From Pseudomonadota bacterium (lineage in GTDB: Bacteria > Pseudomonadota > Gammaproteobacteria > Steroidobacterales > Steroidobacteraceae): a DNA stretch of 54,707 bases. The first letter of the stretch is position 1. Each line of letters opens with the position of its first letter. Below the pieces are notes generated by a model. The model was given only the letters and a program-made list of their open reading frames with translations, did no database searches and was not told the DNA's origin. Shown here in pieces: positions 135 through 51,528 of the stretch. The stretch is from NCBI GenBank assembly GCA_021851405.1, contig JAJZDW010000025.1, positions 1 to 54,707 on the forward strand, given 5' to 3'. Made by a program: the position numbers and the translations under genes.

Positions 135-243
135 GTTCGTGCTCGCGTATCAGATGGGCCGCAGCGGCAGGGGGCGCAGTCTACGCGGGCCGCAGCGACC
201 CACAGCGCTCCCCGGCGCTTCACGCACGCTCGCACCGCCGCAC

Positions 244-260
244 TGTCTCGTTTCGGAACA
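244..260. promoter_or_regulatory. Inverted-repeat operator TGTCTCG-TTT-CGGAACA
   Basis: An imperfect 17-bp palindrome with arms TGTCTCG and CGGAACA around TTT. It lies between the divergent adhC and the first Fis-type regulator. With one extra base on the right it agrees at 15 of 18 positions with the perfect palindrome at 11955-11971, upstream of the aldehyde dehydrogenase. Symmetry, location and recurrence suggest a binding site for one of the AcoR-like regulators; this is inference. Confidence 0.5.
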
Positions 261-360
261 CATTGGACCGGGGCTGTATCAAAGTCGGTCCTGAAAGGTT
301 GCACGGCGCCCCAACCGGCGCATAATTTGTCCTCGACGGATAAAATGGGGGGGGCTGGAT

Positions 361-2274
361 ATGCTGCGGGCCATCGACAATCGTCACCGCCACCCACAGG
401 GGGCACCGCGCAGAGCACTGCGGGTCGAGGATGCAGGCACCCCGGAGTACATCCGCCGCTCCTGGCTGCGCTGCCTCAACCAGTATCACCTCGACCCGAA
501 ATCCGAGCGCGAGCCGTACGTGCTAGCCCGCCAGGAGCGACTCGAGCGCAAGGAGCACAACCGCGATCTGCTCGCGCTCGCCGACGCCGAGATGGCTCAC
601 CTGTATCACCAGCTCGCCGGCTCCGGCTACTCGATCATTCTTACTGACCGCGACGGCGTACTGCTCGATTACTACGGCGATTTCAGCTTCCGCAACGCGG
701 CGTTTCGCACCGGTCTTGTCCTCGGTGCGATGTGGGACGAGGAGCACGGCGGCACCAACGGCATGGGCACCTGCCTGGTCGAGCGCACGCCGCTGATCGT
801 GCACCGCGATCAGCACTTCTTCTCGCGCAACAGCGGCCTGACCTGCTGTGCGGCGCCAATCTTCGATCACCGCGGCGAGCTGATCGCCGTGCTCGATGCG
901 TCCGGGGAATCCGATCGCGCTCAACAGCACACGCTGGTGCTGGTCAACATGGCTGCGCAGATGATCGAGAATCGCCTGTTCCTGCATCACTTCCGCGACG
1001 CCTTCGTGGTGCGCTTCCACAGCCGCCCGGAACTGCTCGGCACCTGGGGCGAGGGCATCATTGCACTCGACGCCAACGGCCTGATCAGCGCCCTTGACCG
1101 CAATGCGCTGTTCCAGCTCGGGCTGAAGTCCCCGGCGGAATTGCTCGGCTCGCCGCTCGAGCGGGTGTTCACGGTCTCGCTCAATGCGCTGCTGGCGCGC
1201 AGCCAACGCAAATCCTTCCACCCCCTGACGCTCTACGACGCTCACCACGGCGGGCGGATGTTCGCCATCGCCCAGGCGCCGCAGTCCAAGCGCGGCGGCA
1301 AGCCGCGCGGGCCGGGTTCGGCCGGGACCGAGGCGCTCGACCCGGACCGCGGGCCACTCGAGGAACTCGACTTCGGCGATCCAATCATGGCGCGCAACAT
1401 TCAGGCCACCCGACGGACGCTCACGCGCGACATCCCGATCCTGCTGATCGGGGAGTCGGGCACCGGCAAGGAATGCTTCGCGCGGGCGCTGCACGCCTCG
1501 AGCGAACGGGCCGAGAAGCCGTTCGTCGCCCTGCACTGCGGTGCGCTCGCGGACGGCGAGCCCGCCGGGGCGACGCTCACCGAGCAGATGCACTCGCGCG
1601 TCGTACAGGCCAACGGCGGCACGCTCTTTCTCGATGACGTCGGGGAGCTGCCGACGCCCCTGCAGGCTCAGGTCCTGCATCTGATCGAGGAACGGTCGCT
1701 GCCGGCGACCGCCGGCGCCGAGGCCGTTCGCATCGATGTGCAGCTGGTGAGCGCCACGCGCCGCGATCTGAACGAGCCGGTGCAGCGCGGGGCGTTGCGC
1801 GAGGACCTGTTCTACCGCTTGCAGGGCCTGGTATTGACACTGCCGACGCTGCGCGAGCGCAAGGACAAGGCGGCCGTGATCCGCCACATCTTCGCCCAGG
1901 AGAGCGCCGCGACGCCAGCGGTCAGCATGGGCGAGGACATGATCGATGCACTCAAGGCGTACAGCTGGCCCGGCAACATCCGCCAGCTGCGCAACGTGCT
2001 GCGCGGCATGATCGCGATGCGCTCGAACAATCAGCTCGACGCCGGCTGTCTACCGGCCGAATACGGCGCCGGTGAAGTCCATACCGAGGAAACGCTGAGC
2101 ACCGAGGCGCAGCGCCTCAATCCGCTCGAACGCGCCGAGCGCAGCGCGCTGCTGCACGAGATCGAGCTGTATCAGGGCAATCTCAGCCGCGTCGCACACT
2201 CCCTCGGCATCGGCCGCAATACTCTCTATCGCAACCTTCGCCGGCTGCACATCAGCCTGCCGGTGCGGCGCTGA
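361..2274 (+). CDS. AcoR-like Fis-family regulator lacking the GAFTGA loop
   Basis: A 637-residue regulator. A GAF-type sensor occupies roughly residues 70-210, followed by an AAA+ domain and a C-terminal Fis-type helix-turn-helix (about 605-630, GNLSRVAHSLGIGRNTLYR). Walker A (GESGTGKE, 364-371), Walker B (GGTLFLDDVGE, 419-429) and the WPGNIRQLRN motif (536-545) are present. The segment that should hold ESELFGY and GAFTGA, which contacts sigma-54, is shortened to about residues 395-417 and has no such motif. In the bacterial enhancer-binding family, loss of GAFTGA abolishes sigma-54 remodelling, so this protein may act at sigma-70 promoters or modulate its two complete paralogues nearby. It diverges from adhC, a likely target. 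Its 3' end overlaps the convergent regulator by 23 bp. The ATG follows a G-rich Shine-Dalgarno stretch. Confidence 0.87.
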   Translation: MLRAIDNRHRHPQGAPRRALRVEDAGTPEYIRRSWLRCLNQYHLDPKSEREPYVLARQERLERKEHNRDLLALADAEMAHLYHQLAGSGYSIILTDRDGVLLDYYGDFSFRNAAFRTGLVLGAMWDEEHGGTNGMGTCLVERTPLIVHRDQHFFSRNSGLTCCAAPIFDHRGELIAVLDASGESDRAQQHTLVLVNMAAQMIENRLFLHHFRDAFVVRFHSRPELLGTWGEGIIALDANGLISALDRNALFQLGLKSPAELLGSPLERVFTVSLNALLARSQRKSFHPLTLYDAHHGGRMFAIAQAPQSKRGGKPRGPGSAGTEALDPDRGPLEELDFGDPIMARNIQATRRTLTRDIPILLIGESGTGKECFARALHASSERAEKPFVALHCGALADGEPAGATLTEQMHSRVVQANGGTLFLDDVGELPTPLQAQVLHLIEERSLPATAGAEAVRIDVQLVSATRRDLNEPVQRGALREDLFYRLQGLVLTLPTLRERKDKAAVIRHIFAQESAATPAVSMGEDMIDALKAYSWPGNIRQLRNVLRGMIAMRSNNQLDAGCLPAEYGAGEVHTEETLSTEAQRLNPLERAERSALLHEIELYQGNLSRVAHSLGIGRNTLYRNLRRLHISLPVRR

Positions 2275-3340
2275 GACGCGCCGACTCGGCCGCCTCCCCG
2301 GCCCGCCAGGTCTGACGCTCGATGCCGTGCCGCTTCATTTTGCGGTACAGCGTGTTGCGGCTGACACCGAGCGCAACCGCCGCGCGGCTCATGTTGCCGC
2401 GGTTGACGTCGATCACGCGCAGCAGTGCGGCACGCTCCGCACTGCCTAACAGACCGGGACGGCGCGCCGGCGCCGCTGCGCTCGGCGCACCCCGGGCGGC
2501 GACGATCTGCGCCGGCAGGTCACATTGACGCACGACGCCGCCGTCACAGATGGCGATGGCCGTGCGGATGACATTGCGCAATTCTCGGATGTTTCCGGGC
2601 CAGGGATAGGCGAGTAAGCTCGCCAGAGCGTCCGGCTCGATGCGTCCCGCCTCGAGCCGCCACGCCGCGGGCAGTGCCGCCCGAATGACCTGCTCCTTGT
2701 CGGTGCGCACGCCGAGCGCCGGCAGTTCGAGCGTCAGGCCGTTGAGCCGGTAGTACAGGTCCTCCCGGAACGCCCCGCAGCGGATCATCTCGCGCAAGTT
2801 GCGGTGCGAGGCGGCGAACACGTGCAAGTCCACGGCACAGGCGCTGTCGCTGCCGAGCGGCAGGATCTGATGCTCCTCGAGCACGCGCAGCAGCCGGCTC
2901 TGCAGCGCCTGCGGCATGTCGCCGATTTCATCGAGGAACAGCGTACCACCGGAGGACTGCGCAATGCGCCCGCGCAACCCCTCGCGCCGCGCCCCGGTGA
3001 ACGCCCCGGAGCGATAGCCGAACAGTTCGCTCTCGATGAGCGTCTCGGGAATCGCCGCGCAGTTGACCGCGACGAATGGCCGGGCCGCGCGCCGGCTGAC
3101 CCGATGAATGGCCCGGGCGAATGCCTCCTTGCCGCAGCCGGTCGGCCCCTGGATCAGCACCGGGATGTCGGTATCGGCGATACGGTAGGCGCAGTGCACG
3201 TTGTGCAGCATCAGCGGGTCATCGCCCGCGAGCTCCTCCAGGCTGAACTCAGCGCCGCAGGGCGCAGGGTCCAAAACCATGCACTCGACGGATACGTCAC
3301 CGACGATCAGCCCCCGGGATTCATCTGTTGTGCCGATCAT
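2252..3340 (-). CDS. Sigma-54-dependent Fis-family activator without sensor domain
   Basis: A 362-residue enhancer-binding protein with almost no N-terminal sensory region. The AAA+ domain starts near residue 35 and shows Walker A GPTGCGKE (65-72), an intact GAFTGA (112-117), Walker B GGTLFLDEIGD (131-141) and WPGNIRELRN (247-256). A Fis-type helix-turn-helix lies at about 313-337 (GNMSRAAVALGVSRNTLYR). I prefer the ATG at 3340 (MIGTTDE), which has an AGGGGGCGAG ribosome site, over the upstream in-frame ATG at 3406, because that one falls inside a perfect palindrome. The gene diverges from the porin, whose upstream region carries a consensus -24/-12 promoter, so it is the likely porin activator. 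Missing sensory input implies control by abundance, a partner protein or a paralogue. Confidence in family is high, in target moderate. Confidence 0.88.
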   Translation of the reverse strand: MIGTTDESRGLIVGDVSVECMVLDPAPCGAEFSLEELAGDDPLMLHNVHCAYRIADTDIPVLIQGPTGCGKEAFARAIHRVSRRAARPFVAVNCAAIPETLIESELFGYRSGAFTGARREGLRGRIAQSSGGTLFLDEIGDMPQALQSRLLRVLEEHQILPLGSDSACAVDLHVFAASHRNLREMIRCGAFREDLYYRLNGLTLELPALGVRTDKEQVIRAALPAAWRLEAGRIEPDALASLLAYPWPGNIRELRNVIRTAIAICDGGVVRQCDLPAQIVAARGAPSAAAPARRPGLLGSAERAALLRVIDVNRGNMSRAAVALGVSRNTLYRKMKRHGIERQTWRAGEAAESARLSAAPAG

Positions 3341-3393
3341 ACGCTCGCCCCCTGCGCCGCCGCGGCGCTGCGTCATGTGTGTCATGTCCCAGC

Positions 3394-3406
3394 GTGACAG
3401 TGTCAC
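3394..3406. promoter_or_regulatory. Perfect palindrome GTGACA-G-TGTCAC
   Basis: A perfect 13-bp dyad located 54 bp upstream of the preferred start of the minus-strand regulator and about 225 bp upstream of the porin -24/-12 promoter. A wider TGTCA-N10-TGACA dyad overlaps it on the left (about 3380-3399). The position suits an enhancer site for the regulator, possibly serving both divergent genes. This role is inferred. Confidence 0.45.
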
Positions 3407-3630
3407 GGAACGAAGCAGGTTCGGGCCCGCACCCCGTCCATCGCCGCGCTAGTGTGCGCGCCGCGCCGCGCCCGCGACTCGCCCATGCGCGCGTCCAGCG
3501 CATTCCGCGGCGCCGGTTGTTCCGGAAGCGTGACAGGGTGTATCGATCGCCGCCGCCGGCCAGCGCGCGGCAGTGCGCTTGTGCCGTTTGGACGTATGCG
3601 CCGCGCAACGAGGCCGCCGGCGCACCGGCG

Positions 3631-3646
3631 TGGCACGGCGATTGCT
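3631..3646 (+). promoter_or_regulatory. Sigma-54 (-24/-12) promoter of the porin
   Basis: The sequence TGGCACG-GCGA-TTGCT matches the sigma-54 consensus TGGCACG-N4-TTGC exactly, including the 12-bp offset between GG and GC. It lies 44 bp upstream of the porin ATG. Three enhancer-binding-type regulators are encoded within 6 kb. Confidence 0.85.
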
Positions 3647-3689
3647 CTGCGCGGGAGTGACTCCAACGTATAACGCAGGGGGCTTTTCA

Positions 3690-4940
3690 ATGAGATTTCG
3701 CAATGCGAACGTCCTGGCCGCGGTCCTGTGCGCCGCACTCAGCGCGCCGGCAGCACACGCCATCAGCGTCAAGGCCGGAAAATGGAAGCTGTCATTCAAC
3801 GGCAACGTCAACGCGAATTACATCTATTCACAGTGCGAGAAGCACCCGAGCGTGGTGGCGGGCGGCCTCGCCTGCGTGGCGAGCAGCGGGTCCTCCTCGG
3901 TCTCGAACGGATTGCTGCCGGCAGCGCTGACGGTCAGCGGCTCGACTCTGCAGGACGGCTACCACATCGGCTTCACCTTCGGCCTGTACCCTGGAATCAG
4001 CACCAACGACGGCGGCAGCCCGAACCTGCAGGTCGGCAGCGGCAACTTCGGCCACACCGCCCTCGGCACCGCCGGACTCGACGTCCGTCAGGCATTCCTC
4101 ACGGTCGGCAACAAGCACTTCGGTACCATCATGGCGGGCCGCAACATCGGCCTGTTTGCCTCCGATGCGATCCTCAACGACATGACCCTGCTCGGAGTGG
4201 GCGCCGGCAACGGCAATTACGCCGCGCCGGCCAATACCTCGCTCGGCTCGATCGGGCTCGGCTACATCTACACCGATTGGCTCGCGCAGATCGACTACAC
4301 CACCCCGACGGTGCACGGTGCGAACGTGACGGTCGGGATCTTCGATCCGCTGAACACGCTCGGGCAGGTGCCGGCGAATCACTCCACGCCCGGATTCCAG
4401 GCCAAAGCGACCTACACACTAGGGGACCTGTACCTGTCGGCGAGCGGACTGTACCAGCGCCAGGCAATCGCCTGTTCCGACCCGTCGCTCAACGCCACGG
4501 CGTGCGTGATTGGCACGAACAACCTGCACTACAGCAGCGCCGCGTTCGACATCGGCGGCAAGTACACCGCCGGACCGTTTCAGATCATGAGCTGGTACTA
4601 CCGCGGCACCGGCGTCGGCACCACGGGCCTGTTCGTAAACTCGAACGACTCGCTCGGCCGCCCTCGCGCCTCCGAGGGGTTCATCGCACAGCTGACCTAT
4701 ACGTACGGCAAGACCAAGTACGGCATCAACTACGGGGAGAGCAAGCTCGATCCGACCGCGCTCGACCTGGCGAACGGTACGCTGGTCGAGATGAACAATA
4801 AGTGGACCGCGGGCATCTATCACCATCTGACCCACAACCTGCTCCTCGACGGGGAGTTCAGCCGGCTGCAGTCGACCAATGACATGGGTCAGAAGAACGC
4901 CAGCTGGAACATCAATGCCGGCCTGTTCCTGAGCTTCTGA
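3690..4940 (+). CDS. Outer-membrane porin-like beta-barrel protein
   Basis: A 416-residue exported protein. Residues 1-24 form a signal peptide (MRFRNANVLAAVLCAALSAPAAHA) and the mature chain is rich in Gly, Thr, Tyr and alternating hydrophobic residues. It ends in the Phe-terminated GLFLSF that targets outer-membrane barrels. The pattern (GKWKLSFNGNVNANYIYS, later LTYTYGKTKYGINYGESK) resembles Gram-negative porins. The likely role is diffusion of small solutes, perhaps alcohol substrates, into the periplasm where the PQQ dehydrogenase acts. The ATG follows AGGGGG. It is preceded by an exact sigma-54 promoter and followed by a strong hairpin, so it is probably monocistronic. Substrate specificity is not visible. 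Confidence 0.8.
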   Translation: MRFRNANVLAAVLCAALSAPAAHAISVKAGKWKLSFNGNVNANYIYSQCEKHPSVVAGGLACVASSGSSSVSNGLLPAALTVSGSTLQDGYHIGFTFGLYPGISTNDGGSPNLQVGSGNFGHTALGTAGLDVRQAFLTVGNKHFGTIMAGRNIGLFASDAILNDMTLLGVGAGNGNYAAPANTSLGSIGLGYIYTDWLAQIDYTTPTVHGANVTVGIFDPLNTLGQVPANHSTPGFQAKATYTLGDLYLSASGLYQRQAIACSDPSLNATACVIGTNNLHYSSAAFDIGGKYTAGPFQIMSWYYRGTGVGTTGLFVNSNDSLGRPRASEGFIAQLTYTYGKTKYGINYGESKLDPTALDLANGTLVEMNNKWTAGIYHHLTHNLLLDGEFSRLQSTNDMGQKNASWNINAGLFLSF

Positions 4941-4958
4941 CAGGCCGACAGTGCGCCG

Positions 4959-5007
4959 CCACTGGTCCGGAAACGGACCAGTGGCCGGTGTTTGCCCCCC
5001 TTTTTTT
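4959..5007 (+). terminator. Hairpin terminator after the porin
   Basis: CCACTGGTCCG (4959-4969) pairs perfectly with CGGACCAGTGG (4974-4984) around a GAAA tetraloop. A run of seven T follows at 5001-5007. The gap between stem and T-run is longer than in textbook terminators, but the hairpin lies directly after the porin stop. Confidence 0.65.
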
Positions 5008-5108
5008 GACTAAGCTCGGTACAATCCCCTCGGGTGAGGGGTACCGTGCACTTCCGGCGGCGCCCGCGTGGATCCCCGGACTCTGTCAGCGGAACGATAC
5101 GAACAGCC

Positions 5109-7277
5109 ATGTCATCCACACGCCGCCTGTCCCTCAGGCCCGGCCAAGGCCGGCCTGGCGCACGCACCGCCTGCCTCACCGCCGCCGCCGCTGCGGCTCT
5201 CGCGGCGAGCGGCTTCCCGGCACGCGCCGCGCCCGCACGGCGTCTGGCGGACATCGTAGTGACGGCCACCCGAATCGCGATGCCCGCGTTCGACGTGCCG
5301 GCCTCGATCACCAGCGTCTCGGGCGCCGAATTGCGCGACGACGCCCTCGGTATCAATCTCGCCGAGGGCGTGCGCTCGGTAGCCGGCCTGCTGGTGCGCA
5401 ACCAGTACGATTACGCCCAGGACCAGCAGGTGTCCATTCGCGGGATCGGCGCCGGCTCGGCGTTCGGCGTGCGCGGCGTGCGCATCTATCAGGACGGCAT
5501 CCCGCAGAGCGGACCCGATGGTCAGGGCCAGGTTTCGCAGTTCAACCTCGGCTCCGCGCAGCGCGTCGAGGTGCTGGAAGGGCCCTTCTCGGCCCTCTAC
5601 GGCAACTCCTCCGGCGGCGTGATCCAGATTTTCACCGCCTCGGGCAAGGCGCCCGGCTCGCTGCGCTTTGATCTGGGGTTCGGCAGCTTCGGCGCCGTGC
5701 GCGCCGGCGTCGATGCCAGCGACGCGGTCGGCAAGCTGCGCTACAACCTGAACTTCACGCACTTCTCTTGGCAGGGCTTTCGGCCCCAACAAAAGGCGCG
5801 CAGCGAATCCTTCAACGGCAAGGTGAACTACGCCCTCAGCGCGCGCAGCTCGCTCACGTTCGTCGCCAACGTGCTGTCGCGGCCCGATTCGCTCGACGCC
5901 CAGGGACTCACCGCCGCACAGTTCGCCGCCAACCCGGACCAGACCGGCGCCGGTGCCCTCGCCTTCCATACCCGCAAGACCCTCGATCAAGAAGAAGGCG
6001 GACTGATCTTCAAGCACGAGCTCGGTGCGCACCAGCAGCTGCGCCTGATGGGCTACTATGGCCACCGCAGTGTGCTCCAGTATCTGTCCATCCCCGTGGG
6101 CGCGCAGTTCGCCCCGGCGAGCTCCGGCGGCGTCGTCGATCTGCACCGCGACTTCGGCGGCGGCGATGCCCGCTGGAGCCTCAAGACCCACCTCGCCGGT
6201 CACGCACTCGCCTGGGTCGCAGGGGTGAGCTACGACACGCAGAACGAACAGCGACGCGGCTACAACAACTTCATCGGCCCGACGCTCGGCGTGCTGGGGG
6301 CGTTGCGGCGCAACGAAAACGACATCGCGCGCAACATCGATGAGTACACCCAAGCGAGCCTGTCGCTCTGGCGGCACTGGAGTCTCATGTTCGGCGTGCG
6401 CCACAGCGAAGTGAAGTTCATCACCCAGGACCACTTCATCACCCCGGGCAATGGCAATGATTCCGGCGGGGTGACCTACACGGCGACCTCACCGGTCGCC
6501 GGCGTGCTGTACGCGCCGCTGCACTGGCTGCACCTGTACGCCGCCTTCGGCCAGGGATTTCGCACACCGCTCGCCTCAGAGCTCGCCTACCAGCCCGACG
6601 GGGCCCCGGGCCTGAATTTCGCGCTGCGCCCGGCGCGCAGCAACAACGGGGAGATTGGCGCGAAAGTACGGCTCGGACGAACGCTCAATGCCTCCGTCGC
6701 CGCATTCCTCACTCACACCAACGACGAAATCGTCGTCGTCACCGACAGCGGTGGGCGCACCACCTATCAGAACGCCGGGCGGACGCGCCGCAGCGGCATG
6801 CAGGCCTCGCTCGCGTATCACTTCCTACCACTCTGGCACCTGCAGTTCGCCTACACCTACGTCGATGCGGTGTACATCGATGGATTTCGCACCTGCACCA
6901 CCGTGCCGTGCGCGGTCCCGACGCAGCTGATCCCGGCCGGCAACCGCCTGCCGGGCGTGCCGCGCAACAGCGCCTATGCGCGCCTCACCTGGGGGGGCCG
7001 GCGCGGCTGGCACACGAGCCTGAGCGGGCAGTACCTGGGGTCGATTCCGGCGAATGAAGCCAATACGGCCCGCGCCAGCGCGTACTCGGTGTTCAACGTC
7101 AGCGGCGGGTACCGCACGGCCCTCGGCTCGCAGCGCCTGGAGGTCTTCCTGCGGGTGAACAATCTGCTCAACCGGCGCTACGTCGCCGCGGTGATCGTCA
7201 ATCAGTCAAGCGGAGCGTACTTCGAGCCCGCGCCCGGCATCAACGTACTGGCCGGCGTAAATCTCACCTTACGCTGA
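5109..7277 (+). CDS. TonB-dependent outer-membrane receptor
   Basis: A 722-residue receptor. An Arg/Ala-rich export signal (about residues 1-42) leads into the plug domain with the TonB-box-like DIVVTATR. The plug continues through SVRGIGAGSAFGVRGVRIYQDGIP-type text to VEVLEGPFSALYGNSSGGVIQIFT. The remainder is beta-barrel and closes with EVFLRVNNLLNRRYVAAVIVNQ. It would import a scarce ligand across the outer membrane using TonB-ExbBD energy. Its place beside a PQQ dehydrogenase with a lanthanide-type metal site makes a rare-earth chelate or PQQ attractive ligands, but siderophore or vitamin uptake cannot be excluded. ATG 5109 is preferred to the in-frame ATG at 5034 because it gives a normal signal peptide. 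A small hairpin (5026-5041) sits in the leader. Its end overlaps the convergent regulator by 9 bp. Confidence 0.88.
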   Translation: MSSTRRLSLRPGQGRPGARTACLTAAAAAALAASGFPARAAPARRLADIVVTATRIAMPAFDVPASITSVSGAELRDDALGINLAEGVRSVAGLLVRNQYDYAQDQQVSIRGIGAGSAFGVRGVRIYQDGIPQSGPDGQGQVSQFNLGSAQRVEVLEGPFSALYGNSSGGVIQIFTASGKAPGSLRFDLGFGSFGAVRAGVDASDAVGKLRYNLNFTHFSWQGFRPQQKARSESFNGKVNYALSARSSLTFVANVLSRPDSLDAQGLTAAQFAANPDQTGAGALAFHTRKTLDQEEGGLIFKHELGAHQQLRLMGYYGHRSVLQYLSIPVGAQFAPASSGGVVDLHRDFGGGDARWSLKTHLAGHALAWVAGVSYDTQNEQRRGYNNFIGPTLGVLGALRRNENDIARNIDEYTQASLSLWRHWSLMFGVRHSEVKFITQDHFITPGNGNDSGGVTYTATSPVAGVLYAPLHWLHLYAAFGQGFRTPLASELAYQPDGAPGLNFALRPARSNNGEIGAKVRLGRTLNASVAAFLTHTNDEIVVVTDSGGRTTYQNAGRTRRSGMQASLAYHFLPLWHLQFAYTYVDAVYIDGFRTCTTVPCAVPTQLIPAGNRLPGVPRNSAYARLTWGGRRGWHTSLSGQYLGSIPANEANTARASAYSVFNVSGGYRTALGSQRLEVFLRVNNLLNRRYVAAVIVNQSSGAYFEPAPGINVLAGVNLTLR

Positions 7278-9173
7278 CTCCTGGGGCCGCAGCGCGCGAT
7301 AGATCGTGTTGCGTGAGACACCGAGCGACCGGGCGGCGGCCGAGACGTTGCCGCCGTTGCGTTCGAGTGCGGCGATCACCGCGCTCGAACGCAGGGACCT
7401 CAGATCGCCCGCATCGGCGCGCGGCCGACCAACGCCCTCGGACGGCAGGTCATCGAGAAAGTCCTCCGGCAGCTGCTGTGGGCCGACCCACCCCGACTCC
7501 TCGGCCATGATGCTTGCGGTACGCAGGACATTGGCGAATTGGCGGATGTTGCCCGGCCAGCGATAGCGGTGGAACGCAGCGAGCACCTCCGGCGCGAACT
7601 GCGGTACGGAGGGGCTCTGCTCGCACATGATTCGCGCCATGAGCGTCTCGAGGTCCGTCCGTTCACGCAGCGCCGGCAGCCGCACCGAGAGGCCATTGAG
7701 TCGGTAGTACAGATCCTCGCGAAACAGCCCACGGCGCATCATGTCCTTCAGATCGCGGTGAGTCGCGCAGATCACCGCGATGTCGACCGGTCGCTCGCGG
7801 TGCGCGCCGAGCGGCAGGACCGCCCGCTCCTGCAACACCCGCAGCAGACGGGTCTGCAGTGCGAGCGGCATGTCGCCGATCTCATCGAGGAACAGCGTCC
7901 CACCGTCCGCGAGGACGATCTTGCCAGGGTTCCCCCGGCGGCGCGCTCCGGTGAAGGCGCCCTCCTCGTACCCGAACAGCTCGGCCTCGATCAGCGACTC
8001 CGGGAACGAGGCGCAGTCGAGCGCAATGAACGGACCAGTGCGCCGTCCGGACTCGTTGTGGATCGCGTGCGCCAGCAGTTCCTTGCCGGTGCCGGTCTCA
8101 CCGAGAATGAGAATGGGAATTGCGTGGCCCTGGACCTTGCGGATCTTGCCAATGACCGCGGCGATGGCCGGATCCCCGGTGTCCAGATCCGCCAGCGTCG
8201 GCGCATGGCCGGACGGGACCTGTGCGTCGTGTCGCGGCGCCGGCACCGCGGTCACGGAGCGGCGGGCCGCGAGCGAATTCGGCTCGACGCGCGCCAGCAC
8301 CGCCTGCCCGGTACGCAGCGTCAGGCGCACCAGTGTCCCGGCCACACCGCGCCGCGCCAGCAGGGAAGGCACGTCGATCTCGAAGAGCGAATGAAGCGAG
8401 CACGCGGCGAGTTCCTCGGCGGCAAGGCCGAGGAGCGCGCGCGCATTGGCGTTGGCCGCGAGCATCCGGCCCGCCTCATCGAATGCCGCGATACCCTCGA
8501 GCAGCGTGCCGAGCAGCTCCGTTCGCGGATGAAAGTGGATCCGCAGACTCTGCCCGAATTCATCGACGAAGAGTTGATTCTCGATCATGTGCGTCGAGAT
8601 GCGCACCAGGCCCATGGTGTGCGGGTGATACCCTTCCTGGGGTCCGGACACATCGAGCGCACCGATCAGCTCACCGCGCGGCCCGTGGATCGGGCTGCAA
8701 GAACAGGTGAGAAAGCGATTGACCGTGAGGAAATGCTCACTGCCGTGCACCAGGGTGGCGCGCCGCTCGACCAGCGCCGTGCCAATCGCGTTGGTTCCCT
8801 TGCTGTCCTCCGACCAGAGCACTCCGGGCTTCAAGGCCACCTGCTCGGCCTTCTCGAGAAAGTCCCCGTCGCCGAGGGCATGCATGATCAGGCCGTGCTC
8901 ATCGGTCAGCAGAACCATGCTGTGGGTGTTGAGAATCTGCTGATGGAGCAACTCCATCACCGGCAGCGCATGCAGATACAGCGACCGATGCTGCTCGGCC
9001 AGCTCGCTCAGTGCGCGACGACTGAGCGCACTGTAGTCCGGACGCCAGCGCTCGCTCAAACCCGAGCGACGGACCCGCTCGTGCCACAGCGACACGACTT
9101 TGGAGCGCTCCGCGACGTTCAATTCGTCGGCCGCATGCAGCGCTGACTGCAGCGCAGCGGATTCGTCTCTCAT
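7269..9173 (-). CDS. AcoR-like sigma-54-dependent activator (GAF + AAA+ + Fis)
   Basis: A 634-residue full-length enhancer-binding protein. The N-terminal region carries a GAF-like sensor (about 70-205; HSMVLLTDEHG, GTNAIGTALVER, IHGPRGELIGALDVSG) and a PAS-like linker (about 218-300). The AAA+ core has Walker A GETGTGKE (358-365), GAFTGA (405-410) and Walker B GGTLFLDEIGD (424-434). The C-terminal Fis helix-turn-helix (GNVSAAARSLGVSRNTIYR) ends the chain. It has the domain plan of AcoR-type activators of acetoin and alcohol catabolism. It lies next to the cytochrome c and PQQ dehydrogenase genes, and exact sigma-54 promoters precede that dehydrogenase and the aldehyde dehydrogenase, so it is the leading candidate activator for them. 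Which ligand binds GAF is unknown. Confidence 0.9.
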   Translation of the reverse strand: MRDESAALQSALHAADELNVAERSKVVSLWHERVRRSGLSERWRPDYSALSRRALSELAEQHRSLYLHALPVMELLHQQILNTHSMVLLTDEHGLIMHALGDGDFLEKAEQVALKPGVLWSEDSKGTNAIGTALVERRATLVHGSEHFLTVNRFLTCSCSPIHGPRGELIGALDVSGPQEGYHPHTMGLVRISTHMIENQLFVDEFGQSLRIHFHPRTELLGTLLEGIAAFDEAGRMLAANANARALLGLAAEELAACSLHSLFEIDVPSLLARRGVAGTLVRLTLRTGQAVLARVEPNSLAARRSVTAVPAPRHDAQVPSGHAPTLADLDTGDPAIAAVIGKIRKVQGHAIPILILGETGTGKELLAHAIHNESGRRTGPFIALDCASFPESLIEAELFGYEEGAFTGARRRGNPGKIVLADGGTLFLDEIGDMPLALQTRLLRVLQERAVLPLGAHRERPVDIAVICATHRDLKDMMRRGLFREDLYYRLNGLSVRLPALRERTDLETLMARIMCEQSPSVPQFAPEVLAAFHRYRWPGNIRQFANVLRTASIMAEESGWVGPQQLPEDFLDDLPSEGVGRPRADAGDLRSLRSSAVIAALERNGGNVSAAARSLGVSRNTIYRALRPQESA

Positions 9174-9325
9174 CCCATCCCCCCCTCAGCGTACCCCAGG
9201 CACGACTGGCGGACTTTCTCTTATCACTACCCTAGCGCGATCGCGCGGCACGGTACATTACGGCATACCGAGATCCGCAGCGCCCCCCCGGGGGTGCCGT
9301 CACGAGGCGGGCCGCGCCGCCTGGG

Positions 9326-9883
9326 CTAGTCGGCGGGGGGATCGGTCCGTGCGCCGGGCAGGGCCCCGACGAGCGCCTCGCAGTGCGGCGAGGCCGCCGG
9401 CGCGCCCGAACGGGGTACCGAGGGCCGCGCCCCACAGCCCCCGCCCGCCCGCGCATGCCTCGTGGGCGGACGGGGGCCGTGATAGAGCAGCGGCACTGCG
9501 CTGGTGCTCGCCATCGAGTGGGTCAGCGCCGTCCTGCCGGCTGGAAAGCCGTTCTGCTGCAGCAGGAAGGACATGATGTCCACGTACTGCTTCGGGGTAA
9601 GGGACCCCGGCGCATAGGCCGGCATGTTCACCGAGAGGAACAGGTAGATGTCCCGGACCTTGTAGTTGGCCTTGGGCGAGGCGAAGATCGGCCCGCTCAA
9701 CGCCGGACCCACCAGCCCCTGCTCCTGCCTTCCATGGCACGCCGCACAATGGTGCTCATAGGCTCGATGTCCCGCGCGGGCCTGTGCCGCGGTATACAGC
9801 GCCGGCACCGCCGCCTCGCCGCGCGGGACTCCCCACGCGGCGAGGCTCAGAGACAACACGAGCAGCGCTCGAGACCGGCGCAT
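9326..9883 (-). CDS. Periplasmic c-type cytochrome, partner of the PQQ dehydrogenase
   Basis: A 185-residue protein with a signal peptide (MRRSRALLVLSLSLAAWGVPRGEA) and a single haem-binding CAACH motif. An axial Met is probably in NMPAYAPGSLT. The order CAACHGRQEQGLVGPALSG followed by MPAYAPGSLTPKQYVDIMSFLL is that of small class I cytochromes which accept electrons from periplasmic PQQ alcohol dehydrogenases. It lies 16 bp downstream of the dehydrogenase gene and is surely co-transcribed. ATG 9883 is chosen over 9919, which would overlap the upstream gene and spoil the signal sequence. The last 55 or so residues are Arg/Pro/Gly/Ala-rich without cytochrome character and may be a disordered tail or the result of a past frameshift. 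Confidence 0.83.
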   Translation of the reverse strand: MRRSRALLVLSLSLAAWGVPRGEAAVPALYTAAQARAGHRAYEHHCAACHGRQEQGLVGPALSGPIFASPKANYKVRDIYLFLSVNMPAYAPGSLTPKQYVDIMSFLLQQNGFPAGRTALTHSMASTSAVPLLYHGPRPPTRHARAGGGCGARPSVPRSGAPAASPHCEALVGALPGARTDPPAD

Positions 9884-9899
9884 CGACCGCGCGCCGCGC

Positions 9900-11609
9900 T
9901 CAACGCAGCGCAAAGACATACAAGTGCCCGCCGCGCGGAATGTTCTTCACGACCGGGACCATCTTGCCGCCCCAGATGGGCGTGCCGCCGCCCCAGCCGG
10001 CGAGAATCGCCACGTACTGCTTACCGTTCACCATGAAGGTCGACGGCGGCGCAATGACGCCGGAGGACAGCTGCGGGCTGCGCCACAGCACCGCACCGGT
10101 GCGCGCATCGAAGGCGTACAGATGCCCGCGGGCCGAGCCACTGAACACCACACCGCCGGCCGTGCTCATCGCGCCGGCATCCCACGGCAGGTCGCTCTCG
10201 TGATCCCAGACCTGACGACCGGTATCCAGATCGATGGCCTGCAACGCGCCCCAGTGATGGTCGGCCGGATCATGCACGACCTCGAAGCTCTCCCCGAGGT
10301 ACGGCAGACCGGGATGATAGAACGTGGGCGCACCCTTCATGGTCATGCAGGTGTGAATCGTTGGCACATACGCCAGGTGCGTCACCGGATCGACGGAAAT
10401 TGGCCACCAGTTCTTACCGCCGAGGAAGCTCGGGCAGGTGAACACTTGTTTGTTCATCGCCGGCCGCAGCGCATTGTTGGTGTAAGGCAAGCCGTTCTTG
10501 AAGCCCTCGACCGACGTCGCGCGTGTGAATTGTCGAGCATAGATCAACTTGCCGTTCACTCGATTGATGGCATAGAACCAGCCATTGCGATCGGCATGGA
10601 CGATGGCCCGGTAGGTCGTGCCGTGATAGCGCAGCGTCGTGATCACCGGAGTATTCACCCCGTCGTAGTCCCACGAATCATTCGGGGTGTACTGGTAGTA
10701 CCACTTGATCTTGCCGCTGCGCGGGTGCAGGGCGAGCAACGAGTCGGTGAACAGGTTGAGCCCTGGGCGCAGCTTCGCGAGCCACGGCGCAGGGTTGCCG
10801 ACGCCCCAGAAGAGCGTGTCGGTGCTCGGATCATAGGTGCCCGTGATCCAGGCCGAACCGCCGCCGTGCTTATACATGCCCTTCGGCCAAGTGTTCGCAC
10901 CGAGATGTCCGGGCGCGGGCGTCGTCCAGCGGCGCCACAGGAGCGCACCGGTCCTCGCATTCAGCGCCTGGATGAAATCGCGTGCACCGTATTCCCCGCC
11001 GGATTCCCCGACGATCACCATGCCTTTGAGGATCATCGGTGCGAGCGTCATCGCGTAGCCGACGTCGGCGGGCTTCAGTTGCCGCTGCCAGACCACCTTA
11101 CCGCTGATCGCATTCAGGGCGACGACATAGTTGTCGAGCGTCGCCATGTAGACGTCGTCGCCATAAAGCGCGACGCCGCGATTGACCACGTCGCAGCAGA
11201 CGGTCTTGAAGCCGACGCCCGGCATGGGCCGGACGTACTTCCACAGGACTTTGCCGGTCACGGCATTCAGCGCGATCAGATGATCCTTCGGAGTCGTGAT
11301 GAACATGTACTGTCCATTGACCATCGGCGTCGACTCGTAGCCCTGCTTCAGGTGACTTCGGTAGCTCCAGACCAAATGCAGATTCTTGACGGTGTGCGTG
11401 TTGATCTGCGTGAACGGCGCGAAGCTGTTGCCGGCGTAATCTCGCCGAAACATCAGCCAGCCGTTGTCCGTGGCGGCCGCCGCGAGCCGTGCATCAGTCA
11501 CGGTCGGATAGCCGCCGGCACGGGCGACGCCTGAGAACGCCAGCGCAACGAGTAGCCCCGCAGCGCTGGCGCGACGGACTCGATGCGACAGGGCATGGAT
11601 GGTCGTCAT
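9900..11609 (-). CDS. PQQ-dependent alcohol dehydrogenase with lanthanide-type metal site
   Basis: A 569-residue quinoprotein with an N-terminal signal peptide (cleavage near AGVARAGG) and an eight-bladed propeller rich in tryptophan-docking repeats (for example TGKVLWKY, SGKVVWQR, TGRQVWDH). The adjacent Cys138-Cys139 pair (TVCCDVVNRG) forms the vicinal disulphide typical of PQQ alcohol dehydrogenases. Metal and cofactor residues are visible as Glu206 (GGEYG), Asn272 (GNPAPW) and catalytic Asp314, with an additional Asp316 in SWDYDGVN. In methanol and alcohol dehydrogenases that extra Asp marks enzymes using lanthanides (XoxF/PedH type) instead of calcium. It would oxidise primary alcohols in the periplasm and pass electrons to the cytochrome encoded just downstream. 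ATG 11609 follows GGGGGAG; a sigma-54 promoter lies 80 bp upstream. Exact substrate unknown. Confidence 0.92.
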   Translation of the reverse strand: MTTIHALSHRVRRASAAGLLVALAFSGVARAGGYPTVTDARLAAAATDNGWLMFRRDYAGNSFAPFTQINTHTVKNLHLVWSYRSHLKQGYESTPMVNGQYMFITTPKDHLIALNAVTGKVLWKYVRPMPGVGFKTVCCDVVNRGVALYGDDVYMATLDNYVVALNAISGKVVWQRQLKPADVGYAMTLAPMILKGMVIVGESGGEYGARDFIQALNARTGALLWRRWTTPAPGHLGANTWPKGMYKHGGGSAWITGTYDPSTDTLFWGVGNPAPWLAKLRPGLNLFTDSLLALHPRSGKIKWYYQYTPNDSWDYDGVNTPVITTLRYHGTTYRAIVHADRNGWFYAINRVNGKLIYARQFTRATSVEGFKNGLPYTNNALRPAMNKQVFTCPSFLGGKNWWPISVDPVTHLAYVPTIHTCMTMKGAPTFYHPGLPYLGESFEVVHDPADHHWGALQAIDLDTGRQVWDHESDLPWDAGAMSTAGGVVFSGSARGHLYAFDARTGAVLWRSPQLSSGVIAPPSTFMVNGKQYVAILAGWGGGTPIWGGKMVPVVKNIPRGGHLYVFALR

Positions 11610-11688
11610 ATGAAATGCTCCCCCAATGTAATTGGCTGACGTGCGGCGGAATCGGCTCGCAAGCGTCACTCCACCTGATGGGCCCGAT

Positions 11689-11704
11689 TGCAAGGGCCAT
11701 GCCA
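11689..11704 (-). promoter_or_regulatory. Sigma-54 promoter of the PQQ dehydrogenase-cytochrome operon
   Basis: Read on the minus strand, TGGCATG-GCCC-TTGCA fits the sigma-54 consensus with exact spacing. The -12 element is 80 bp upstream of the dehydrogenase ATG. Confidence 0.82.
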
Positions 11705-11954
11705 CGGTGCGCCGCGCGCGGCTGCGGCTCTCTACAAGCCACCGCGCACACCCGTTGCAGACACCACACGCGATTCCCCGCCGCGTGGGTGCGAAGAGAT
11801 CCGCACCGATTCGGCGGCGAAAGATGTCGGACTCAGCCGTGCGAGATCCTTCCGAGCGTTAGATGCGACCCCCGGAACGAGCCCACCGCCTAGCCCGTGC
11901 GCCGCGGGCCACACTCACCGTGCCGCGCTGCGCTGCGCAGGAGGCCGGATGAGG

Positions 11955-11971
11955 TGTTCCGTTTTGGAACA
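11955..11971. promoter_or_regulatory. Perfect palindromic enhancer site TGTTCC-GTTTT-GGAACA
   Basis: A perfect inverted repeat with 6-bp arms and a 5-bp centre, 74 bp upstream of the aldehyde dehydrogenase -24 element. It lies about 250 bp from the divergent -24 element of the PQQ operon, so it could serve both. It shares its pattern with 244-260 beside adhC. A second dyad, GTTGCGCAAC, lies about 13 bp further right. Binding by the AcoR-like regulators is inferred. Confidence 0.65.
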
Positions 11972-12044
11972 CTCCGGCGTTGCGTTGCGCAACACGGCGC
12001 ACTCCGCAACGCGGCCGAAGCGATGTTTCGGGTGGCGCTTTGGA

Positions 12045-12060
12045 TGGCATGTGCCTTGCA
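12045..12060 (+). promoter_or_regulatory. Sigma-54 promoter of the aldehyde dehydrogenase
   Basis: TGGCATG-TGCC-TTGCA fits the sigma-54 consensus with exact spacing, 41 bp upstream of the aldehyde dehydrogenase ATG. The palindromic site at 11955-11971 sits at a normal enhancer distance. Confidence 0.85.
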
Positions 12061-12100
12061 GTAGGATTCTCCAGACCGAATCCACCGCGAGGCATCTTCC

Positions 12101-13621
12101 ATGTCCATCCAACCCAGCACCCATGGTCGCGTCAAGATTGCGCTCAAGGCGCGCTACGAGAACTACATCGGCGGCCGATGGGTCCCGCCGGTCAAGGGCG
12201 AGTACTTCACCAACCTCACACCCGTCACCGGGGCCGGCCTGTGCGAGATCGCGCGCTCGGGCGCCGCGGACATCGAGCTCGCGCTCGATGCGGCGCACCG
12301 GGCCCGGGCCGCCTGGGGCCAGACCTCCCCGGCCGAGCGCGCCCTGGTGCTGAACCGCATGGCCGATCGCATGCAAGAGAAGCTCGAGTACCTCGCCACC
12401 ATCGAGACCTGGGACAACGGCAAGCCGATCCGCGAGACGCTCGCGGCCGATCTGCCGCTGGCGATCGATCATCTGCGCTACTTCGCTGGCTGTATCCGTG
12501 CGCAGGAAGGAGCGCTCAGTCAGATCGACGAGGACACCGTCGCCTATCACTTCCACGAGCCCCTCGGGGTGGTCGGGCAGATCATTCCGTGGAACTTCCC
12601 GCTGTTGATGGCCACCTGGAAGCTCGCCCCGGCGCTCGCGGCCGGCAACTGCGTGGTGCTGAAGCCGGCCGAGCAGACGCCGCTGTCGATCCTACTGCTG
12701 CTCGAGCTGGTCGGGGATCTGCTGCCGCCCGGGGTGCTGAACGTGGTCAACGGCTTCGGCGTCGAGGCCGGCAAGCCGCTCGCCTCGAGCGCACGCATCG
12801 CCAAGATCGCCTTCACCGGAGAGACCACCACCGGCCGGCTGATCATGCAGTACGCGGCGCAAAATCTCATCCCAGTGACGCTCGAACTGGGCGGCAAGTC
12901 CCCGAACGTGTTCTTCGCAGACGTCTGCCGGGCGGACGATGATTTCTTCGACAAGGCCATCGAAGGCTTCGTCATGTTCGCGCTGAACCAGGGCGAGGTG
13001 TGCACCTGCCCGTCGCGGGCCCTGATCCAGGAGTCGATCTACCCGCAGTTCATGCAGCGGGCACTGCAGCGCGTCGCGCAGATCAAGCAGGGCGATCCGC
13101 TCGACCCGGCGACCATGGTCGGCGCCCAGGCCTCCGCGGAGCAGATGGAGAAGATCCTCACGTACCTCGAACTCGGCAAGCATGAAGGCGCCGAGTGTCT
13201 CGCCGGCGGACAGCGCACCCGGCTCGCAGGGCCCCTCGCCGAGGGATATTACATCCAGCCGACCGTCTTCAAGGGCCACAACCGCATGCGCATCTTCCAG
13301 GAGGAGATCTTCGGCCCCGTGGTGTCGGTCACGACCTTCAAGGACATGGACGAGGCGCTCGCCATCGCCAACGACACGCTGTACGGACTCGGCGCCGGCG
13401 TGTGGTCGCGCGAGGCGAACACCTGCTACCGCATGGGACGAGCCATCCAGGCCGGTCGTGTCTGGACCAACTGCTATCACGCCTACCCGGCGCATGCGGC
13501 CTTCGGCGGCTACAAGCACTCGGGGATCGGACGGGAGACCCACAAGATGATGCTCGAGCACTACCAGCAGACGAAGAACCTGCTGGTGAGCTACTCCCCG
13601 AAGGCACTCGGGTTCTTCTGA
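12101..13621 (+). CDS. exaC: NAD-dependent (acet)aldehyde dehydrogenase, ExaC/AldB type
   Basis: A 506-residue aldehyde dehydrogenase of normal family length. The NAD-binding region includes [10 protein letters not shown] and the substrate-side motif [12 protein letters not shown] holds the catalytic Glu. The nucleophile Cys lies in the family's [11 protein letters not shown] segment, and [12 protein letters not shown] closes the active-site region. The sequence follows the AldB/ExaC subgroup, which oxidises acetaldehyde and related aldehydes to acids. It is the second step after periplasmic alcohol oxidation, acting in the cytoplasm. A DUF779 gene follows within 9 bp, a conserved pairing for this subgroup. 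An exact sigma-54 promoter and a palindromic site lie upstream, matching the regulation of the divergent PQQ dehydrogenase. Confidence 0.93.
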
Positions 13622-13629
13622 GGCGCACC

Positions 13630-14010
13630 GTGACGAGCGCACGGGTCAGCGCCACCGCCGCGGCGCTCGAGCTGATCGGGCAGCTCGTGACGCGCCACGG
13701 TGCGCTGATGTTTCACCAGTCCGGGGGCTGCTGCGATGGCAGCGCCCCGATGTGCCTGGCACGTGGGGAGCTGCAGATCGGTGCGCAGGATGTGTACCTG
13801 GGGCAGATCGGCCAACAGCCCTTCTACATCGGCGCGGCGCAGTTCGAGTACTGGCGGCACACGCACCTGATCATCGACGTCGTGCCCGGTCGCGGCGGGA
13901 TGTTTTCCTTGGAAGGTCCCACCGGGATGCGCTTCATCACCCGCTCGCGTCTCTACACCCCGGAGGAGGAAGCCGCGCTGCCGCCCGTGCGGTGCGGGCC
14001 AGCCGGCTGA
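13630..14010 (+). CDS. DUF779 protein linked to aldehyde dehydrogenase
   Basis: A 126-residue protein of the DUF779 family. The hallmark is the Cys-rich FHQSGGCCDGSAPMC near residues 33-47, a plausible metal-binding site, followed by YIGAAQFEYWRHTHLIIDVV and GRGGMFSLEG. Members are found immediately behind ExaC/AldB aldehyde dehydrogenases; their biochemical role is not established. The start is a GTG eight bases after the dehydrogenase stop, with a GAGGCG ribosome site overlapping that stop, implying translational coupling and one transcript. No signal peptide is seen, so it should be cytoplasmic like its partner. Confidence 0.85.
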   Translation: MTSARVSATAAALELIGQLVTRHGALMFHQSGGCCDGSAPMCLARGELQIGAQDVYLGQIGQQPFYIGAAQFEYWRHTHLIIDVVPGRGGMFSLEGPTGMRFITRSRLYTPEEEAALPPVRCGPAG

Positions 14011-14042
14011 GCGGTGCCGGCCCGCCGCGGATTTCTGCAATA

Positions 14043-15290
14043 ATGGAGCCCATGGAGGGGTTCACGCTGCTGTTCATTCTGATCGTCGCGGGCGGCATGG
14101 CCCTTGAGCTGTGGCTCGCCACTCGGCAAAGCGCCGCGGCGCGCGCGCATCGCGATCAGGTGCCCGAGGCCTTCGTCGGCCAGGTCTCCCCAGAGGCCCA
14201 CCGTAAGGCGGCCGATTACACCGCCGCCAAGGTCCGCCTGGCCCGCATCGGCACCGTGCTCGATGCACTCCTGACGCTCGCTCTGACGGTCGGCGGCGGC
14301 ATCACCGCGCTCGATGCGCTGTGGATGCGGACCGGGGAATCCGAGTTGTGGCGCGGCACGGCCGTGATCGCCTCGGTGAGCGTGCTGGTGATGCTCGTCA
14401 ATCTGCCGCTATCGCTGTGGCGCACGTTCGTCCTCGAGGCACGCTTCGGCTTCAACCGCACGACGGTGCGGCTGTATCTGCTCGATGCGGTCAAGGGGAT
14501 CGTGCTCGCCGTCGTGCTCGGGGTGCCGGTGGTGCTCGCGGCGCTGTGGCTGATGGCGCGTGCCGGCAGCCTCTGGTGGCTGTGGGCGTTCGGCGGCTGG
14601 GTGGTGTTGACGCTGCTGCTCAGCTGGGCCTGGCCGGTGGTGATCGCACCGCTCTTCAACCGCTTCTCGCCTCTCGCCGATGCGGCGCTGAAGGCGCGCA
14701 TCGAGGCGCTGCTCGGGCGCTGCGGCTTCACCTCGAGCGGCGTGTTCGTGGTGGACGGCTCGCGCCGCTCAGCGCACGGCAACGCCTACTTCACCGGCTT
14801 CGGGCGTCACAAGCGCATCGTATTCTTCGATACGCTGCTCGAGCAGCTCGCGCCGGTCGAGATCGAGGCGGTGCTCGCTCACGAGCTCGGCCACTTCCGT
14901 CTGCACCATGTGCGGGCCGGACTCGCCGCCTCGATCGCCGTGATGTTCGCCGCGCTCGCGCTGCTCGGCTGGCTCGCCCGTCAGGCCGCGTTCTACCACG
15001 CCCTCGGAGTGGCGCAGCCCTCGGCGCACGCAGCCTTGCTGCTGTTCGCATTCGCCGCACCCGCGGTGCTGTATTTCGCAACGCCGCTGAGTGCGCTGTG
15101 GTCGCGCCGGCACGAATACGCCGCCGACCGCTTTGCCGGTGCGCATGCCGATGCGCACGCCCTCGCCAGCGCGCTGGTGAAGCTCTATGGCAACAACGCC
15201 AGCACGCTCACGCCCGACCCGCTCTACAGCGGGTTTCACGATTCGCACCCGCCGCCGCTCGCACGCATTGCACGCCTGAACGGCGTGTGA
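14043..15290 (+). CDS. M48 family membrane zinc protease (Ste24/CAAX type)
   Basis: A 415-residue membrane metalloprotease. An N-terminal hydrophobic helix, three or more further transmembrane stretches between about residues 70 and 205, and two more after the active site fit the Ste24 layout. The zinc motif HELGHFRLHH lies at about residue 280, and the third ligand is in RRHEYAADRFA near 355. In proteobacteria such enzymes degrade misfolded membrane proteins. Two closely spaced start codons (14043 and 14052) are possible; I took the first. It follows the aldehyde dehydrogenase block on the same strand with a 32-bp gap, but its function is not obviously linked. Confidence 0.9.
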   Translation: MEPMEGFTLLFILIVAGGMALELWLATRQSAAARAHRDQVPEAFVGQVSPEAHRKAADYTAAKVRLARIGTVLDALLTLALTVGGGITALDALWMRTGESELWRGTAVIASVSVLVMLVNLPLSLWRTFVLEARFGFNRTTVRLYLLDAVKGIVLAVVLGVPVVLAALWLMARAGSLWWLWAFGGWVVLTLLLSWAWPVVIAPLFNRFSPLADAALKARIEALLGRCGFTSSGVFVVDGSRRSAHGNAYFTGFGRHKRIVFFDTLLEQLAPVEIEAVLAHELGHFRLHHVRAGLAASIAVMFAALALLGWLARQAAFYHALGVAQPSAHAALLLFAFAAPAVLYFATPLSALWSRRHEYAADRFAGAHADAHALASALVKLYGNNASTLTPDPLYSGFHDSHPPPLARIARLNGV

Positions 15291-51494: not shown

Positions 51495-51528
51495 AGAACC
51501 GTACGTGACACTCTCGCGTCATACGGCT
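51495..51528 (-). ncRNA. Group II intron domain V
   Basis: A 34-nt hairpin. GAGCCGTAT pairs with ACGTACGGTTC, including the usual mispairs, and the top stem GACGCGAGAGTGTC carries a GNRA-type GAGA loop. This catalytic core overlaps the last 10 bp of the reverse-transcriptase gene. Confidence 0.85.

Follow-up and report, generated by a model that had tools for sequence, protein, structure and literature searches.

Conserved sigma-54-type promoter elements at a putative PQQ-dependent alcohol-oxidation locus of a Steroidobacteraceae bacterium

Our analysis concerns the window, that is, the whole 54,707-nt contig JAJZDW010000025.1 (GCA_021851405.1) of an uncultured Steroidobacteraceae bacterium, in which three -24/-12 elements of the sigma-54 (RpoN) type lie ahead of genes for an outer membrane porin, a pyrroloquinoline quinone (PQQ)-dependent alcohol dehydrogenase and an aldehyde dehydrogenase. 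The same region encodes a cytochrome c, a DUF779 protein, a TonB-dependent receptor and three regulators of the bacterial enhancer-binding protein (bEBP) type, termed EBP1, EBP2 and EBP3. The genome scanned comprises 3.52 Mb in 76 contigs and is 97.4% complete. Below, L, G and C numbers denote locus stretches, genomes and contigs, with G000 for the own genome; L059–L062, L064–L069 and L071 are on the same contigs as L043–L053 and were counted once, and L044 and L045 are near-identical.

Pattern searches confirmed the three elements where a preliminary description of this DNA had placed them, with correct -24/-12 spacing: TGGCACGGCGATTGCT at 3631–3646 on the plus strand for the porin gene, TGGCATGGCCCTTGCA at 11689–11704 on the minus strand for the PQQ dehydrogenase gene and TGGCATGTGCCTTGCA at 12045–12060 on the plus strand for the aldehyde dehydrogenase gene. 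They lie 56–95 bp ahead of their genes, and the porin transcript is predicted to start near 3657. Sigma-54 elements usually carry C or T at the last base of TGGCAY, and the consensus is often written with a pyrimidine before TGG. The wording "exact", a little generous, holds for TGGCAY-N5-TTGCW, which all three elements satisfy, but not for stricter forms: TGGCAC occurs only in the porin element, TGGCAT in both dehydrogenase elements and the leading pyrimidine in none. The pattern YTGGCAYGN4TTGCW has three genome matches, all of them elsewhere (0/3 of the reported elements).

The pattern TGGCAY-N5-TTGCW has 11 matches in the genome, three of which are the reported elements, and TGGCAY-N5-TTGC matches these three and no other site within the window. 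The observed genome density corresponds to about 0.0005 expected matches in 350 bp of a single strand, which bears out the earlier claim that chance is an unlikely source. An rpoN gene is present (PF04552, 224.7 bits, G000:C48:76202-76672). Of the eight further matches, one is an exact element 71 bp 5′ of a type IV pilin gene and another an exact element 28 bp 5′ of the gene for a PEP-CTERM/PA14 protein (stretches L092 and L089 of the own genome). A Pfam search of open reading frames (ORFs) chosen at two other matches (L090, L091) gave no match.

Alternatively, the elements could have arisen by chance or reflect some other conserved DNA signal, with the genes read from sigma-70 promoters. The genome-wide excess over a reversed control is only about twofold (11 versus 5), and TGGCACN5TTGC with up to two mismatches gave 45 matches in the window, fewer than in shuffled sequences (mean 63.6); without an excess of looser matches, the case for sigma-54 rests on near-exact matches, placement and conservation. 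Against this explanation stand the placement of the elements, the invariance of all nine fixed bases at three promoters and a sigma-70 scan of the first 14.1 kb that gave no match, and we consider it very improbable. Chance as the origin of the three elements was rejected on genome rarity, low expected density and column invariance.

The PQQ dehydrogenase element is exact in 12/12 relatives whose enzyme is at least 71% identical (11 genomes of the genus and L063) and was not seen in the stretches examined of L070 (63%) and L054–L058 (at most 46%). Likewise, the aldehyde dehydrogenase element is exact in all 11 relatives that share 84% identity or more, as well as in L126 (75%), and has one mismatch in L166 and L167. 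Among 20 porin loci that include the 5′ end of the gene (55–96% identity; G008 and G024 contribute two loci each), 19 carry the exact element and L117 differs at one base, and the more distant porins of L162, L164 and L165 (46–49%) have a sigma-54 element, too. In the alignments, the nine fixed bases are invariant in every element. Other invariant columns amount to 107/485 (22.1%) in the intergenic alignment of seven sequences, which include one near-identical pair, and to 36/341 (10.6%) in the porin-upstream alignment of 17 sequences, which were picked for having the exact element (the unselected count being the 19/20 above). Under the same mask, four other positions are as invariant in the intergenic alignment and none in the porin-upstream alignment.

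The two dehydrogenase genes are divergent and share an upstream region. The aldehyde dehydrogenase (12101–13621, plus strand) belongs to the ExaC family (NF050026, 949.5 bits, cut-off 900), with best PDB match 9fm9 (921 bits) and 809 bits for ExaC itself (9koi). It is followed after 8 bp by the DUF779 gene (13630–14010, plus strand; PF05610, 154.8 bits), which is therefore probably on the same transcript. On the minus strand, the gene for the periplasmic, PedH-like PQQ alcohol dehydrogenase of the methanol/ethanol family (9900–11609; TIGR03075, 554 bits, cut-off 480) is overlapped at its 3′ side by a cytochrome c gene (9326–9919; PF13442) that adjoins it in relatives, too, and whose product is likely the electron acceptor. 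Next on this strand is EBP3 (7269–9173), with a GAF domain (weakly matching PAS), an AAA domain containing GAFTGA and a Fis-type helix-turn-helix (HTH). Comparison of relatives and a genome pattern search revealed a 6-5-6 dyad, TGTTCCGTTTTGGAACA, at 11955–11971 between the two dehydrogenase promoters, and a second dyad, CGTTGCGTTGCGCAACA, at 11978–11994. The first is an exact TGTTSC-N5-GSAACA, a pattern that occurs once in the genome. With one mismatch, the operator has 18 sites elsewhere compared with 5 in the control, and only one of four sites inspected (L085–L088) is near the start of a TonB receptor gene: at L085:4440-4456 (G000:C30), the dyad TGTTCCATTTCGGCACA is directly 5′ of this gene, with a HisKA_3 kinase gene divergent.

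Across the loci tabulated, 10 of 13 have a TGTTCC-starting TGT-N11-ACA element no more than 150 bp ahead of the aldehyde dehydrogenase site. At the PQQ dehydrogenase, 6 of 13 carry a TGTTGC-type dyad at -111 to -115 of the element, and the five distant loci carry TGTTCC-N5-GGAACG or a weaker version of it. Moreover, EBP3 accompanies either half of the system on its own: the aldehyde dehydrogenase with its TGTTCC dyad and no PQQ dehydrogenase between them in L116 and L117, and the PQQ dehydrogenase with cytochrome c, lacking the aldehyde dehydrogenase, in L049–L053. These patterns suggest that EBP3 is the likely activator of the dehydrogenase genes. In L070, the genes for aldehyde dehydrogenase, porin, PQQ dehydrogenase, cytochrome c and DUF779 protein are co-directional, an EBP3 homologue is divergent and the dyad reads TGTCGCAACTTGCGACA.

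The porin gene (3690–4940, plus strand) gave no Pfam, NCBIfam or PDB match in sequence searches and is assigned to the Porin_4 type by homologues; among those listed, many are annotated with PF13609 or as porin and several are labelled Steroidobacteraceae. Opposite to it lies EBP2 (2252–3406, minus strand, start codon uncertain), which has an AAA domain with GAFTGA and a Fis-type HTH and in which no sensor domain was recognised. Two candidate operators recur across the porin upstream regions of relatives: the palindrome GTGACAGTGTCAC, here at 3394–3406 at the 5′ end of EBP2, and TGTTCC-N6-GTGACA-N3-TGT, here at 3518–3541, some 100 bp upstream of the -24 element. Of 17 tabulated porin loci with EBP2, all but L158 (16) have GTGACA at -99 to -103, compared with 0/2 porin loci of genomes lacking EBP2. 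All 16 EBP2 loci carry GAFTGA. EBP2 is divergent to the porin gene with the sigma-54 element between them in the window clade and in G038, G050, G010, G035, G055, G031 and G039, and the stretches examined of these seven genomes contained no PQQ or aldehyde dehydrogenase of this cluster. EBP2 thus likely activates the porin gene and may possibly regulate itself through operator 1. Downstream of the porin gene, a hairpin with a T run (4945–5012, plus strand; -34.5 kcal/mol, z -6.3, 0/200 shuffles as good) is a probable terminator parting the receptor gene from the porin transcript; a pattern scan did not list it. In L116, a HisKA_3 histidine kinase gene (7521–8876) stands between porin and PqqU-type receptor genes, where the window has a gap of only 168 bp.

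The preliminary description had treated uptake, periplasmic oxidation and aldehyde oxidation as one system. The gene functions fit this sequence of steps, but the idea of a single control is not supported, as the porin gene has its own operator and EBP2 while the dehydrogenase genes have a different operator type in common and are paired with EBP3. A version in which EBP3 alone drives all three promoters, EBP2 being redundant or a modulator, could draw on the common promoter type and the proximity of the genes, and on TGTTCCGGAA at the start of porin operator 2, which resembles half an EBP3-type dyad. It would also suit the porins of L149 and L151, which have a sigma-54 element in genomes with EBP3 and without EBP2, and those of L162, L164 and L165, which are in one run with a PQQ dehydrogenase gene behind one sigma-54 element. 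However, TGTTSC-N5-GSAACA occurs at the porin gene in 0/17 tabulated loci having EBP2, and the EBP2–porin pair is apart from the dehydrogenase genes in several genomes, which makes a single EBP3 regulon unlikely. One operator type common to all three promoters was rejected on the tabulated porin loci, which lack the dehydrogenase-type dyad. The PQQ dehydrogenase of L162, L164 and L165 is a second one, co-directional with the distant porin behind an exact element, and a GAFTGA-bearing EBP1 homologue is adjacent; the pairing of a porin with a PQQ dehydrogenase thus recurs there in a different layout.

All three regulators are of the bEBP type and lie within 9 kb as claimed, although their genes span 361–9173 and thus extend beyond the 3631–12060 segment first described; EBP2 and EBP3 carry GAFTGA, whereas EBP1 does not and faces a different gene. 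EBP1 (361–2274, plus strand) combines GAF, AAA and HTH domains, as seen in domain searches and in relatives. It is divergent from the 5′ end of frmA (3–134, minus strand, cut by the contig end), encoding a class III alcohol/S-(hydroxymethyl)glutathione dehydrogenase; the orthologue at L116:14376-15560 scores 617 bits with TIGR02818 (cut-off 544). This divergent arrangement was found in 20/20 loci that have the 5′ side of EBP1 on the contig. GAFTGA is absent from EBP1 in all 23 loci of 21 genomes (at least 63% identity) and present in all 11 distant homologues (38–43% identity). Ten of the 14 full frmA loci were scanned for a sigma-54 element, with no exact match and one with a single mismatch (L142). 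Next to GAFTGA-bearing homologues (L153, L154, L160), frmA has TGGCACGCGGAATGC, and at several of the 11 distant loci one-mismatch elements lie inside or close to target genes, with stray one-mismatch hits elsewhere in these stretches, too, and none in L161 and L163. EBP1 is therefore probably not a sigma-54 activator, and as such it was rejected, given the missing GAFTGA and the frmA regions without an exact sigma-54 element.

Upstream of EBP1, a dyad, TGTCTCGTTTCGGAACA, is located at 244–260; TGTCYCGWTTCGGAACA is found in 9/9 aligned orthologues, and a CATAAT box is kept in these nine along with it. By analogy with reported GAFTGA-less bEBPs, we infer that EBP1 has shifted to sigma-70-type regulation; the sigma-70 scan of positions 1–14100, which gave no promoter-like site, lends this step no support. 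A different role for EBP1 would be that of a sensor subunit, lacking the sigma-54 loop, in mixed rings with EBP2, which has the loop and no sensor, together driving the porin promoter; in a wider form, the pair would couple an alcohol or formaldehyde signal to this promoter and perhaps to the whole locus. The reciprocal loss of loop and sensor would fit, as would the adjacent, convergent position of both genes in the window clade and their distribution over 58 genomes (both in 20, on different contigs in ten of them; EBP2 only in 2, EBP1 only in 2, neither in 34; Fisher 2.6e-11, uncorrected for descent). Shared descent could account for this co-occurrence, however, and EBP1 is divergent from frmA in every informative locus and ahead of the porin gene in two EBP2-less genomes, which leaves both forms doubtful, slightly more so than a single EBP3 regulon. 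In these two genomes (G003 and G049, loci L149 and L151), the GAFTGA-less EBP1 is directly upstream of the sigma-54-bearing porin gene. Contig C4 (L159, G000:C4:1-9000) starts with the end of frmA followed by a second PQQ dehydrogenase gene (WDYDG). As frmA is split over the starts of the window contig and C4, the true locus reaches beyond the window. Elsewhere in the window, Rfam matched the ends of a group II intron (RF01999, RF00029; 51456–53272, minus strand) with a 420-aa ORF inside (51519–52781).

The best PDB matches of the PQQ dehydrogenase are PedH structures (6zcw/6zcv, 391.7 bits). Its metal-site motif is WDYDG, compared with WDFDG in PedH and WDFSG in ExaA, and was found in 6/6 orthologues inspected, including that of the window. 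A further Asp at the second position past the catalytic one (WD-x-D) is the mark of lanthanide-dependent PedH/ExaF-type enzymes, and the enzyme is probably lanthanide-dependent. The TonB-dependent receptor (5109–7277, plus strand) matches PqqU (PDB 9c4o) with 508.8 bits, the next family reaching 50.7, and the upstream scan found no sigma-54 element of its own. In the window protein, F119, R320 and R382 occupy the published PqqU signature positions (aromatic 99, R304 and R365), and K290 and R550 correspond to K274 and R536, two less conserved PQQ-binding positions. With 641.9 bits against the 1200 of the NCBIfam PqqU model NF041535, it remains PqqU-type rather than certified PqqU. The gene pqqC was not found in this genome and is present in 37/58 genomes of the genus; pqqE, above cut-off in 6/16 genomes queried, is likewise missing here. 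Neither gene was found in G023, G008, G024, G020 and G041, which also bear the cluster, and G028 carries the cluster together with both. On this basis, the microbe seems to import PQQ rather than to make it. The missed NF041535 cut-off counts against import, and so does the limit of the search, as the two absences come from a genome 97.4% complete in which pqqA, B, D and F were not searched. Furthermore, five relatives (G028, G029, G006, G003 and G049) have a PqqU-type receptor plus pqqC and pqqE; the receptor does not go one-to-one with loss of synthesis. None of three points, the PqqU-type receptor, the lanthanide-type active site and the missing pqqC and pqqE, had been noticed in the preliminary description.

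Starting from the elements and their conservation, the operators, gene families, GAFTGA loss, active-site Asp, PqqU residues and missing pqqC and pqqE, we propose a mechanism in which the regulator–operator pairing, inducer, transcript starts, metal, substrate and direction of flow are predicted. EBP3 would presumably sense an alcohol, aldehyde or related signal through its GAF-type domain, bind TGTTSC-N5-GSAACA-type dyads and drive the divergent PQQ dehydrogenase–cytochrome c and ExaC-type aldehyde dehydrogenase–DUF779 promoters. EBP2 would bind GTGACA-type sites and drive the porin gene; it has the sigma-54 loop, no sensor domain being recognised in it, and how active it is must depend on its amount or on a partner. 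EBP1, with the loop lost, would most likely control its own gene and frmA at promoters of the sigma-70 type. The porin would let in small alcohols, to be oxidised in the periplasm by the probably lanthanide-dependent enzyme with PQQ that the PqqU-type receptor would import, and ExaC would then oxidise the aldehyde. On the best reading, the locus serves an alcohol oxidation that scavenges its PQQ, probably depends on a lanthanide and is controlled through sigma-54 by two activators. We put the probability that the three elements are genuine sigma-54 promoters of such an inducible locus with two activator branches at roughly 0.7. Besides the modest genome-wide excess, several observations weigh against it: six of the eight other pattern matches fall at least partly within an ORF of 100 aa or more; the more distant relative L070 (aldehyde dehydrogenase 77%), in which the same genes form a single run, has no exact sigma-54 element; the PQQ dehydrogenase genes of the window and L043 have no near dyad of their own, the shared one being at least 267 bp off; the aldehyde dehydrogenase promoters of L149 and L126 have no such dyad; and in G003 and G049, where no EBP2 orthologue was found, another activator must serve the sigma-54-bearing porin genes of L149 and L151. 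Nitrogen control as such was rejected: nothing points to it, no nitrogen regulator having been searched for, and the tie drawn in the preliminary description rests solely on the old name of the sigma factor.

A literature search restricted to open-licence papers listed none on this arrangement. In Azospirillum, the PQQ alcohol dehydrogenase gene exaA is reportedly under sigma-54 (a report ascribed to Singh et al. 2017), a likeness to the arrangement proposed here. The locus differs from it in having two GAFTGA-bearing bEBPs, two operator types, a sigma-54 porin promoter and a PqqU-type receptor, with pqqC and pqqE not found. According to passages of PMC12826043, a cytochrome c, aldehyde dehydrogenase and DUF779 protein of one cluster are among the Azospirillum proteins raised with RpoE6, as are PqqC, PqqD and PqqE. 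The ped cluster of Pseudomonas putida and the exa cluster of P. aeruginosa likewise combine a porin, the lanthanide-dependent PedH, PedI/ExaC and a cytochrome c as one set, but, as outlined in part of PMC12997753, their control is two-component and AgmR-type, in contrast to the bEBPs with conserved -24/-12 promoters here. In Thauera butanivorans, an upstream-bound, alcohol-responsive bEBP, BmoR, switches the sigma-54 promoter PBMO (excerpts of PMC8899819); the control proposed here through EBP3 would be of this kind, but the target of BmoR is a butane monooxygenase. The PqqU of Escherichia coli is a TonB receptor with PQQ-binding residues, and scavenging of PQQ without synthesis is described as common (sections of PMC12124388); unlike E. 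coli PqqU, the receptor here is encoded inside an alcohol dehydrogenase locus. For bEBPs that lack GAFTGA, Caulobacter NtrC among them, action at sigma-70 promoters has been reported (parts of PMC10274813). EBP1 shares the bEBP architecture without the sigma-54 loop, but has a GAF domain instead of a receiver and faces frmA, and its promoter type would be sigma-70 by inference. With its two activators and two operators, the locus represents a variant of these known systems.

Overall, the locus would bring together PQQ scavenging, control by sigma-54 and an alcohol oxidation that is probably lanthanide-dependent, three subjects usually treated separately. Since the enzyme is kept and appears to be regulated while pqqC and pqqE were not found and a PqqU-type receptor is part of the locus, the bacterium is predicted to depend on the PQQ of its neighbours. 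Moreover, EBP1, EBP2 and EBP3 with their homologues provide a natural series of bEBPs in which the sensor or the sigma-54 loop has been lost and operators and promoters have changed to match, and which makes the evolution of such activators testable.

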